A stretch of DNA of 64,000 nucleotides from Roseibium suaedae. GTDB lineage: Bacteria; Pseudomonadota; Alphaproteobacteria; Rhizobiales; Stappiaceae. Location of the stretch: positions 868,001 to 932,000 of the forward strand of contig NZ_FRBW01000001.1 of the NCBI RefSeq assembly GCF_900142725.1, written 5' to 3'. Below the pieces are notes generated by a model that was not told the origin of the DNA, did not search any database, and saw only the letters and a program-made list of their open reading frames with translations. Each line of letters starts with the position of its first letter. Positions within the stretch are counted from its first letter, which is position 1. Both the position numbers and the translations under genes were made by a program. Shown here one piece after another: positions 8,055-11,811 of this stretch.

Positions 8055-8128
8055 TGGAGCGGGTGAAGGGAATCGAACCCTCGTCGTAAGCTTGGGAAGC
8101 TTCTGCTCTACCATTGAGCTACACCCGC
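8055..8128 (-). tRNA. tRNA-Gly (anticodon CCC)
   Basis: On the minus strand the sequence folds as a cloverleaf: acceptor GCGGGTG/CACCCGC, D-arm GCTC...GAGC, anticodon loop TTCCCAA giving CCC, T-arm with GGTTCGATTCC core, discriminator T and a genomically encoded CCA (8055-8057). It reads GGG codons. It stands alone between the siderophore operon and the sodium channel. The anticodon stem has one outer mismatch (G27-A43). Confidence 0.96.
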
Positions 8129-8350: not shown

Positions 8351-9145
8351 ATGCGCGAACGGCTCGCAAAACTGATCGCCAGTCCCGCCTGGGAAATGGG
8401 TGTGATTGTTATCATCACCCTCAACGCCATTACCCTCGGGCTGGAAACCAGTCCCACGATCATGGGCAAGATCGGGCCCTTGCTACTGGTCTTCGACACC
8501 GTGATCCTGACCCTGTTCACGATCGAGATCGTGCTGCGGATCTATGTGCACAGACTGGCCTTTTTCCGGGATCCCTGGAGCCTCTTCGACTTCATCATCG
8601 TGGCAATCGCCCTGATCCCCGCCAGCGGACCGTTCTCCGTCCTGCGCGCGCTGCGGATCCTCCGGGTGCTCCGCCTTGTTTCCATCCTGCCGTCCTTGCG
8701 CAGGGTCATCGGCGGGTTGATCGCGGCCTTGCCCGGCATGGGCTCTATCGTGGTTCTGCTGGCGCTGGTCTTCTATGTCTTCGCTGTCATGGCAACGAAG
8801 CTCTACGGCGCCTCTTTCCCCGAGTGGTTCGGCACGATTGCCCGTTCGATCTACACCCTGTTCCAGGTCATGACGCTGGAAAGCTGGTCCATGGGCATCG
8901 TCCGGCCGGTCATGGAGGTCTATCCGAATGCCTGGATCTTCTTCGTGCCCTTCATCCTGTGCACGTCCTTCACGGTCCTGAACCTCTTTATCGGTATCAT
9001 TGTGTCCGCCATGCAGGAGGAACATGAGGCCGAGGCGGAGACAAGCCGGCAGGCGATGCAGGATGAGGCAGAGCTGATCCTGGCCGAAGTGCGTGCGCTG
9101 CGCCAGGAAGTGGCAGAACTGCGCCGGAGCGGACTGAAATCCTGA
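8351..9145 (+). CDS. Bacterial voltage-gated sodium channel (NaChBac/NavAb type)
   Basis: A single six-helix channel subunit of 264 residues that should form a homotetramer in the inner membrane. S1-S3 precede a clear S4 voltage sensor with arginines every third position (LRALRILRVLRLV, 98-110). S5, pore helix and the selectivity filter TLESWSM (175-181) match the four-glutamate filter of NavAb and NavMs; S6 ends in NLFIGIIVSAMQ, followed by an acidic neck and coiled coil (about 222-258). This predicts a Na+-selective, voltage-activated pore that may couple to motility, pH or Na+ homeostasis. The start ATG is preceded by GGAG. A degenerate paralogue follows 71 bases downstream. Confidence 0.93.
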   Translation: MRERLAKLIASPAWEMGVIVIITLNAITLGLETSPTIMGKIGPLLLVFDTVILTLFTIEIVLRIYVHRLAFFRDPWSLFDFIIVAIALIPASGPFSVLRALRILRVLRLVSILPSLRRVIGGLIAALPGMGSIVVLLALVFYVFAVMATKLYGASFPEWFGTIARSIYTLFQVMTLESWSMGIVRPVMEVYPNAWIFFVPFILCTSFTVLNLFIGIIVSAMQEEHEAEAETSRQAMQDEAELILAEVRALRQEVAELRRSGLKS

Positions 9146-9163
9146 TCTGACATTTTTCTTCAT

Positions 9164-9211
9164 CTTCCCCTTCCTGCCGCGTCCTTCAAATGGGCGGAGA
9201 GGAAGGGGAAG
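9164..9211 (+). promoter_or_regulatory. Perfect 12-bp hairpin that covers the next gene's ribosome binding site
   Basis: Arms 9164-9175 (CTTCCCCTTCCT) and 9200-9211 (AGGAAGGGGAAG) are perfectly complementary, with a further CCGC/GCGG pairing inside the 24-base loop. The right arm is the Shine-Dalgarno sequence for the ATG at 9217. No T tract follows on either strand, so this is not a standard terminator. When folded, it would hide the ribosome site and limit translation of the channel paralogue, or allow it only when upstream translation or a factor opens it. Confidence 0.6.
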
Positions 9212-9216
9212 GCTTG

Positions 9217-10080
9217 ATGGATCAATGGTGGACGTTCCGGCGGCATTTGATACGCCTTCTGGAGCGGCTCGGAGCTTTCCTGGCGGTGCTGCTGATAATC
9301 GCGCTGTCATTGGCCCTGTCAGGGTTTCTGGCCGCAGAGGCTCTGATCCTTGCGGAGCGAGCGCTCAAGCTGCTGATGGTATGCTTCGCGCTTGTCCTCG
9401 CTTCGCATCTGCTGCTTCAGGGCGCTGGCTTCTTGCGCGAGGTCTGGAGCCTTTTCGCCCTGGCCGTGCTGGCCCTGTCCTTCATGCTGGAGTGGCCGGG
9501 GCTGCTGGCGTTGCTCTTGTTGCGCCTCTTTCCGGCATTAGGTCTCTGGCCGGAACTGGCAGCGCTTCTTTGGGCGGGAAAATACCTCGTCAGGATGATC
9601 CGCCAGCTGCTCAGGGGGCTTCTTGCCCTGCTGATCCTGTTTGCCTGCGCAGTCCTGCTTCTGACCGCCGCTTTCGCGGATCTCTATCCTGATCACTTCG
9701 GCACGCTTTCGCGGAGCTTTTTCACTCTGGTCCACGTTCTGGATCTGCTGGGGAGCGAAGCCAATGGTCTTGGCAGTCTGGCCATCTGGCTCGTCATGAC
9801 GGTCTGGGCACTGGCGGCTCTCCTGTGTCTGGCTCATTGCCTGCGGCTGTTGATGCCGGACTTCTGGCAAACACTGGAGCTGGAAGAGGAGCTCGAACTC
9901 GTGCAGGAGGCCACTTCGGAAATGAAGCTCATGCAGCTTGAGACCAGATTGCTGTCGGAGGAGTTCGCCGTGGAGGCGGAAGCCGAGCGGCTGCTTATTC
10001 GTGCGGAGACGGATCGCATCCTGCGTGAAGTGGAGGGGCTGCGGCGGCAGATGCAGCGGTTCACCCGCCCGCGCGGCTGA
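9217..10080 (+). CDS. Degenerate paralogue of the adjacent sodium channel (no filter, no charged S4)
   Basis: This 287-residue membrane protein aligns by eye along its length with the channel upstream. FLREVWSLF (72-80) matches FFRDPWSLF (71-79), and LYPDHFGTLSRSFFTLVHV (156-174) matches the channel's LYGASFPEWFGTIARSIYTLFQV. The filter TLESWSM is replaced by DLLGSEA, and the S4 arginine ladder by a leucine-rich stretch (LLALLLLRLFPALGL). The C-terminal coiled coil is retained and longer (about 218-281). It may be an accessory or dominant-negative subunit, or a decaying copy; its intact frame and strong ribosome site favour function. I chose the ATG at 9217 for its GGAAGGGGAAGG site; the ATG at 9190 lacks one. 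Confidence 0.75.
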   Translation: MDQWWTFRRHLIRLLERLGAFLAVLLIIALSLALSGFLAAEALILAERALKLLMVCFALVLASHLLLQGAGFLREVWSLFALAVLALSFMLEWPGLLALLLLRLFPALGLWPELAALLWAGKYLVRMIRQLLRGLLALLILFACAVLLLTAAFADLYPDHFGTLSRSFFTLVHVLDLLGSEANGLGSLAIWLVMTVWALAALLCLAHCLRLLMPDFWQTLELEEELELVQEATSEMKLMQLETRLLSEEFAVEAEAERLLIRAETDRILREVEGLRRQMQRFTRPRG

Positions 10081-10152: not shown

Positions 10153-11811
10153 TCAGGCAGCGAAGTCGCCGTTCAGGGCCTTTGCGATCATCGTGCGGGT
10201 TTCGCTGATGCCGTAAAGCGCCACAAACGACCCGAAGCGCGGGCCGCGTTCCTGACCCAGAAGCACCTGATAGAGCATCTGGAAGAAGACGACGGAGACG
10301 CCCGGGCCACCATCGGGACCGGTCTTCTTGGTGTCCTGGTAGCGCTCGATCGGGCGGGCGACATCCAGGATCGCGTCCTGAATGACATTGCCATCCGCAT
10401 CGGCGGGCAGGGCTGCCAGCGCTGCATCCAGCGCTTCAAGGGCTGCACGCTCCACATCGTCAGCTGCCTTGAAAGACTTGGTCGGCTTGACGAAGTCGTC
10501 GAAGTAGCGGATCGCGTAGCCCACCAGCTCATCGAGCTTGGTATGGGTCTGTGCGGTCACGCCAGGTGCATAGCGGGTGATGAAGGCCCACAGCACATCC
10601 TTGTTCTCGGCGTTGGAAGCCGACACCAGGTTCAGCAGCATTGCGAAGGGCACAGGCATGTCGATAGCCGGCACATTGCCGGAATGAATGTGCCAGGCCG
10701 GGTTCATCAGCTTCTGTTCCGCCGACATGGCAGAATACTTCTCCGCATAGGTGAAGTACTCGTCCACGGCCTTCGGGATCACGTCGAAATAGAGCTTCTT
10801 CGCGGTCTTCGGCTTCTGGAACATGTAGAGCGCAAGGCTCTCGGTCGGTGCATAGGTCAGCCACTCGTCGATGGTCAGGCCGTTGCCCTTGGACTTGGAG
10901 ATCTTGGCGCCGTCATCGGCCAGGAACAGCTCATAGACGAAATGCTCCGGCGGGGTGCCGCCCAGGACCTGACAGATCTTGTCATAGACCGGCATGTTCG
11001 GGCCGTGGTCCTTGCCGAACATTTCGAAATCGACGCCAAGGGCGGCCCAGCGGGCGCCAAAGTCCGGCTTCCACTGCAGCTTCACGTGGCCGCCGGTAAC
11101 CGGCAGGGTGCAGTCACGCCCGTCTTCGTCCTGGAAGGTGACGGTGCCGTTCTTGGCATCGACTTCCTTCATCGGCACGTAGAGCACGCGGCCGGAGATC
11201 GGCGAGATCGGAAGGAACGGGCTGTAGGTCGCCCGGCGTTCCTCGCCGAGCGTCGGCAGCATCACGTCCATCAGCGCCTGATACTTTTCAGCTGCCTTCA
11301 GGAGAATGCCGTCCAGCTTGCCGGTCTTGTAATACTCGGTCGCACTGGCGAATTCGTAATCGAAGCCGAAAGTGTCGAGGAACCGGCGGAGCATGGCGTT
11401 GTTGTGGTCGCCAAAGCTCTTGTAGTCGCCGCCGAACGGGTTCGGCACGACGGTCAGCGGCATCTGCAGATAGGGCTCGAGCGCCTTCATGTCCGGAACG
11501 TTTTCCGGAATCTTGCGCATGCCGTCCATGTCATCGGAGAAGCACAGGAGACGGGTCGGGATCTTGTCTTCGGTCAGGATGCGGAAAGCCGTCCGCACCA
11601 TGGTGGTGCGGGCCACTTCGCCAAACGTGCCGATATGCGGCAGGCCCGAGGGGCCGTAGCCGGTCTCGAACAGAACCGGCACTGACGGATCCCGTTTCTC
11701 AACCCGTTTGACCAGTTTGCGTGCTTCTTCGAAGGGCCAGGCTTTGGAAGTCTGGGCCGCCTCGACGAGATCGCGCGAGAGGTCAAGCGGTGGCAGGGAG
11801 CGTTCGGTCAT
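10153..11811 (-). CDS. lysS: Class I lysyl-tRNA synthetase
   Basis: A 552-residue class I (archaeal/alphaproteobacterial-type) LysRS, not related to the common class II enzyme. It charges tRNA-Lys with lysine using ATP. The HIGH motif is HIGT (59-62) and the KMSKS loop is KISKSKGN (303-310); [11 protein letters not shown] and the C-terminal helical anticodon-binding region are also typical. The length matches the family. It is transcribed alone on the minus strand, convergent with the channel paralogue. Confidence 0.96.

Follow-up and report, generated by a model that had tools for sequence, protein, structure and literature searches.

Bacterial voltage-gated sodium channels serve as structural models for their animal counterparts and are treated as homotetramers; to our knowledge, their role and regulation in the bacteria themselves are poorly known. 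In Roseibium suaedae (genome size 5.14 Mb), a gene for such a channel is followed directly by a second reading frame that resembles it and lacks its selectivity filter, and the question raised by this locus is whether the second product acts on the channel, works apart from it, or is a duplicate in decay. We analysed the window of 64,000 nucleotides that contains the pair (G000:C5:868001-932000, where G000 denotes the R. suaedae genome). A preliminary description had proposed that the paralogue may co-assemble with the channel through a coiled coil and make the pore less conductive or less voltage-dependent, or act as a regulator. That interpretation of a channel and its partner is partly supported: we infer co-assembly from the sequences, and an effect on the current is putative.

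The channel gene and the reading frame behind it

Both reading frames lie where they had been placed, with the channel gene at positions 8351–9145 (forward strand, 264 amino acids) and the paralogue directly behind it at 9217–10080 (forward strand, 287 amino acids). The former encodes a protein with a TLESWS filter, S4 arginines and a C-terminal coiled coil; it matches the Pfam family Ion_trans (PF00520; E 5.7e-43, 147 bits) as well as NavAb and NavMs chains in the PDB (E down to 1.1e-86), and judged by these features its product is an ordinary NavAb-like sodium channel. An orthologue is present in 42 of 45 Roseibium genomes; the other three (G018, G024 and G066) gave no channel match at E 1e-20, and none to a profile built from the paralogues. 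The R. suaedae genome contains two more genes with Ion_trans matches (G000:C5:276931-277503 and G000:C6:500039-500692), and at E 0.001 the paralogue profile matched neither.

Within the window, a tRNA-Gly(CCC) gene (8055–8128, reverse strand) is followed by the channel, the paralogue and then, on the opposite strand and convergent with the pair, lysS (10153–11811, reverse strand), the product of which we take to be a class I lysyl-tRNA synthetase. Across the genus this tRNA gene usually accompanies the channel: of 26 loci, drawn from 25 of the 42 channel-bearing genomes (one is represented twice), 25 hold both genes on a single fetched piece, about 1 kb apart in L154, and no tRNA-Gly was found near the channel in L143. 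The channel of the window therefore occupies the position that is normal for it, and the site immediately following is where the paralogue arose or has been kept.

The longer reading frame of the paralogue opens at 9190, and its most likely start is instead the ATG at 9217, which lies behind a purine tract (9200–9211) and 71 bases past the channel's stop codon. Because a consensus scan of this short gap predicted neither a terminator nor a promoter, the two genes probably share one transcript. Just 5' of the start, the gap also holds an inverted repeat (9164–9211, forward strand) with perfect 12-base arms (9164–9175 and 9200–9211), the second of which is the purine-rich ribosome-binding stretch itself; the predicted hairpin would bury it. 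In the window this hairpin has a stability z-score of -3.42, equalled in none of 200 shuffles, and the structures at the same place in the other three carriers of the pair are weaker (z -1.37, -0.65 and -1.29). The hairpin is strong in the window only, and is kept out of our main claim.

Descent of the paralogue and what it has kept

The likeness of the two proteins had been noted by eye, from motif pairs in S3 (FLREVWSLF and FFRDPWSLF) and in the S5-pore region (LYPDHFGTLSRSFFTL and LYGASFPEWFGTIARSIYTL) that we found as quoted, and an HMM search had been suggested as a check against mere hydrophobic resemblance. A profile of the four paralogues alone (the window's own and three from related genomes) matched solved NavAb-type chains with E-values down to 6.9e-17, so that the homology extends beyond the hydrophobic helices and the protein is a true channel paralogue. 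When applied to 4042 reading frames from 80 named channel loci (the best 80 of 453), the profile gave a match at E<1e-5 in all 80; the first match without the filter had an E-value of 0.12, apart from the R. polysiphoniae paralogue, which is itself in the profile. It also matched 42 of the 45 genus genomes, where matches other than the paralogues fell at the channel's own places (E 4.7e-9 or better). Among 149 reading frames matched at E ≤ 1e-4 in loci L001–L161, a set that contains repeats of the same genes, 15 had no filter pattern, and each of these 15 was a copy of one of the four paralogues. At a limit of E 10, Ion_trans (PF00520) was matched by three of the four (best 4e-10), and the window paralogue by itself matched no Pfam or NCBIfam family. 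By these profile comparisons, the paralogue is a descendant of the channel.

We then counted conserved positions, taking as reference the 84 that at least 90% of 38 channels share. Of these, 22 are retained in the window paralogue and 24 in that of R. polysiphoniae; by region (counts that depend on the alignment) the two retain 4 and 2 of nine positions in S4, 1 and 4 of 17 in S6, 3 and 0 of eight in the filter, and 5 of 11 each in the P1 helix. The absence of the TLESWS filter, as previously claimed for the window, extends to all four paralogues (pattern test included), and the region in its place differs between paralogues and varies in length between lineages. The described loss of the S4 arginine ladder was borne out as well, but not to the last residue: of R99, R102, R105 and R108, one is retained in each of the two aligned paralogues (window and R. 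polysiphoniae), that of the window being aligned to channel R102. The conserved acids of S2 and S3 are not retained throughout, and all four paralogues retain five strongly hydrophobic windows, like channels. From the lost filter alone, the paralogue would be expected not to conduct by itself.

AlphaFold2 models of the window and R. polysiphoniae paralogues (mean pLDDT 87.3 and 84.4; pTM 0.48 and 0.49) display in both lineages an S6 helix that continues into one long tail helix, unbroken from residue 188 to 283 in the window, with pLDDT values of 90–98 over most of the tail block and 78–79 at both of its ends. A second pore helix of at least four residues is present in the R. polysiphoniae model and absent in that of the window. 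When the window model was compared with PDB structures using Foldseek, the 50 matches listed (of 91 at E ≤ 0.001) were all NavAb, CavAb, NavMs or Nav1.7/NavAb entries, among which TM-scores by query length were modest (0.39–0.47). Since 38 of the 40 rows in the model alignment were channels, channel likeness is partly built into these single-chain predictions, which lend weak support to a helical channel-like fold and none to assembly.

The paralogue's lengthened neck and its coiled-coil tail (9859–10065, forward strand; residues 215–283) are strongly conserved. Over 37–41 residues its coil aligns with that of the channel with zero gaps (scores of 61–73 versus shuffle maxima of 42–59), a similarity reached in none of 200 shuffles and none of 200 heptad-phase shuffles, with a small margin for the window pair (61 versus a shuffle maximum of 57). 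By this measure the two coils are homologous along an ungapped alignment. A single cross comparison of coils scored 69 versus 73 for the cognate pair, giving no sign of co-variation. The distance from the pore helix to the coil is 103–110 residues in the paralogues versus 83 in the channel, which places the coil 20–27 residues further along the chain.

Selection on the paralogue and its history

Nonsense mutations in close relatives, which the preliminary description had named in advance as evidence against its reading, occur in none of the four paralogue copies. Substitutions were counted by the Nei-Gojobori method in two pairs of genomes, G000/G029 (the window genome and its relative) and G009/G026 (R. 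polysiphoniae and its relative). In the former pair, 151.2 of 446 nonsynonymous and 97.8 of 169 synonymous sites have changed in the membrane part (pN/pS 0.58, p 7.7e-8), and 24.5 of 167 and 42.5 of 52, respectively, in the tail (pN/pS 0.18, p 3e-19). In the latter, the corresponding counts are 28.5 of 504 and 15.5 of 180 for the membrane part (pN/pS 0.66, Fisher p 0.16, indistinguishable from neutral) and 3 of 174 and 16 of 48 for the tail (pN/pS 0.05, p 1.4e-9), which is thus the best-kept part of the protein in both pairs. The membrane part of the channel, counted in the same way, has pN/pS values of 0.15 (G000/G029) and 0.00 (G009/G026). Under a simple neutral model, none of 2000 runs left the whole reading frame open at the G000–G029 distance, and the mean hydropathy of the membrane part dropped to 0.06, versus 1.17–1.29 observed; at the smaller distance, 1.45% of runs kept the frame open. 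Given these counts and this model, together with the absence of stops and the retention of the helices, the paralogue is, as read from its sequence, not a pseudogene, and selection preserves it, the tail far more than the membrane part. A tail kept in this way is what would be expected if it pairs with the channel coil.

The channel-paralogue pair occurs in four of the 45 Roseibium genomes, which belong to two lineages: that of the window with G029, and that of R. polysiphoniae (contig NZ_JACYXJ010000006.1 in the genus sample) with G026. The proposed conservation of synteny holds in two lineages of one genus, with the paralogue directly behind the channel in all four carriers, and the pair is not absent from relatives, being present in three genomes besides that of the window. 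In a family sample of 87 genomes, the 45 of the genus included, the paralogue was again found in four. Samples of the order (397 genomes) and class (385 genomes), in which at most six candidates were scored per genome and distant degenerate paralogues may escape, yielded the window's own paralogue only, the best other match reaching 72 and 75 bits, respectively, versus at least 422. A search of plasmid records gave no match. A scan of a contig collection with the paralogue alignment missed the R. polysiphoniae gene that this collection contains, and its negative outcome is left out of account. The same junction in R. limicola brings the channel and lysS together directly, as convergent genes with no paralogue between them, and the profile detected no paralogue relics between the two genes in R. 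limicola or R. aestuarii. The R. limicola junction (L162, 4700–4790) is short and holds a GC-rich hairpin with T after it.

Support for a clade of the four paralogues is 100/100, in a tree with very long branches, a bootstrap that has not settled and one row of odd composition. The only alternative tested, in which the window-lineage paralogues join their own channels (the outcome expected of a separate duplication in that lineage), was rejected (p 3.6e-5). The carriers themselves are not one clade in a lysS tree of 30 of the 45 genomes, where, with modest support, R. limicola joins R. polysiphoniae/G026 and R. sediminis (G014) joins the window lineage; in a channel tree of 35 genomes, the two lineages of carriers are separated by well-supported branches, and R. 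polysiphoniae has R. limicola and R. aestuarii as its neighbours. Because the four paralogues form one clade, a single tandem duplication within a Roseibium ancestor is the likelier history and is well supported by the sequences; the paralogue tree and the patchy set of carriers could be brought into agreement by one gain with later losses or by transfer from one lineage to the other.

A link between gain of the paralogue and faster evolution of the channel was considered and dropped, since R. limicola (G015) and R. aestuarii (G016), both without the paralogue, show the speed-up too: 7 and 8 conserved channel positions are changed in these two, as compared with 10 and 4 in the lineages that carry the paralogue and 0–2 in the other 29 genomes.

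A putative partner of the channel

We give about an even chance to the reading that the paralogue is a regulatory partner of the channel, anchored in the membrane and acting through its tail, possibly as a silent subunit. After tandem duplication of the NavAb-like channel gene in a Roseibium ancestor, the second copy would have lost its filter and gating charges while keeping its place in the membrane and a long coiled coil at its C-terminus. Its tail would pair with the homologous coil of the channel, and its membrane part would above all anchor it, being at most a subunit that neither conducts nor senses voltage. The sodium current would then be expected to be lowered or retuned, either through mixed silent tetramers or through sequestration or clamping of the channel tail. 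The paralogue is well placed to interfere in this manner because its coil is homologous to that of the channel and it is probably encoded on the same transcript. The drifted pore and S6, and a coil lying so much further along the chain, argue against a classical in-pore silent subunit and against tight co-assembly; with pore surfaces drifted and the neck longer, we favour a looser, tail-led contact over a subunit of the KvS kind. A more specific version, to which we would give somewhat less than even weight, is a heteromeric channel with a dedicated, co-encoded silent subunit that pairs by its coil, such that stoichiometry (perhaps metered by the hairpin) sets the current; it would be the first among bacterial voltage-gated channels.

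What is reported on coils in this family bears on these proposals in different ways. According to PMC3791462, the coil of NavMs stabilises the tetramer and links inactivation to opening, with the linker conferring inactivation, and the C-terminal domain or coil of other bacterial sodium channels is reported to be non-essential for tetramer assembly, which counts against the proposed partner role. PMC9303580 describes greatly reduced membrane expression of NaChBac without its cytoplasmic domain, restored by a foreign tetramerisation domain.

Several other explanations have to be set beside that of a regulatory partner. The strict retention of a tail attached to a drifting membrane part, the extended neck that the channel lacks, and the loss of many pore and S6 positions would all fit a stand-alone membrane-anchored coiled-coil protein that stays off the channel, forms its own oligomer and binds some other partner with its tail. 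We consider this unlikely, though deserving of real weight, in view of the ungapped homology of the tail with the channel coil and of the gene's position, which is immediately after the channel in both of the diverged lineages. The partly kept P1 helix and the helical channel-like model might instead point to a homomeric channel in its own right with a new, non-sodium pore; such a channel is improbable, as the paralogues do not agree in their filter region, which is of different length in the two lineages, most positions of the filter, P2 and S6 are gone, and the window model (unlike that of R. polysiphoniae) has no second pore helix.

The remaining two explanations concern the history of the gene. 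That the carriers are not one clade on either the lysS or the channel tree would be accounted for by two independent duplications that converged, which we nevertheless regard as quite improbable: the paralogues form a single clade, a grouping of those from the window lineage with their channels was rejected (a result that is not final, given the long branches and unsettled bootstrap), all paralogues have the neck extension in common, and their tails are very similar. A functionless duplicate on its way to being lost would explain why the gene is missing from 41 of the 45 genus genomes and why the membrane part is near neutral in R. polysiphoniae/G026; the sequence evidence is strongly against it, with frames open in two diverged lineages, zero stops, helices kept and a highly constrained tail in that same pair of genomes, and its probability is in our estimate very low.

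A selected degenerate partner, if that preferred reading is true, would be either a native heteromer or a tail-binding regulator, and would show, in a testable system of two small genes, how a single tandem duplication can give rise to silent subunits. Among the matches listed from the open-access PMC literature, none describes a bacterial sodium-channel paralogue that does not conduct, and the terms 'heterotetramer' and 'tandem' are absent from the text of PMC7041947.

The paralogue resembles the BacNav channels in its descent, its predicted helical plan, part of its P1 helix and a C-terminal coil that can be aligned without gaps; it differs from them in lacking the TLESW filter, in having a single S4 arginine, in not keeping the S2 and S3 acids throughout, and in its longer neck. 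The silent KvS subunits (Kv5, Kv6, Kv8 and Kv9, partners of Kv2) keep their filter and S4 far better than the Roseibium paralogue does. They are comparable in that the paralogue is probably unable to form a functional homotetramer and may modify a sister that does function, and in that, as expected of a silent subunit, it is found together with that sister, which lies directly upstream in all four carriers. Unlike it, KvS proteins are eukaryotic potassium-channel subunits, the heteromers of which have been shown, whereas those of the paralogue are putative. MCUb, a paralogue of the mitochondrial calcium uniporter, inhibits its channel-forming sister and is similar as a regulatory channel paralogue, in an unrelated channel. 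Tandem sodium-channel genes are also present in three loci of about 4 kb (L254, L255 and L256) from three genomes of another alphaproteobacterial genus; these share with the Roseibium locus the arrangement of two channel genes in tandem and differ from it in that both genes keep an intact TLESWSMG filter and the S4 arginines, such that their products would be a natural case for heteromers of two working subunits.
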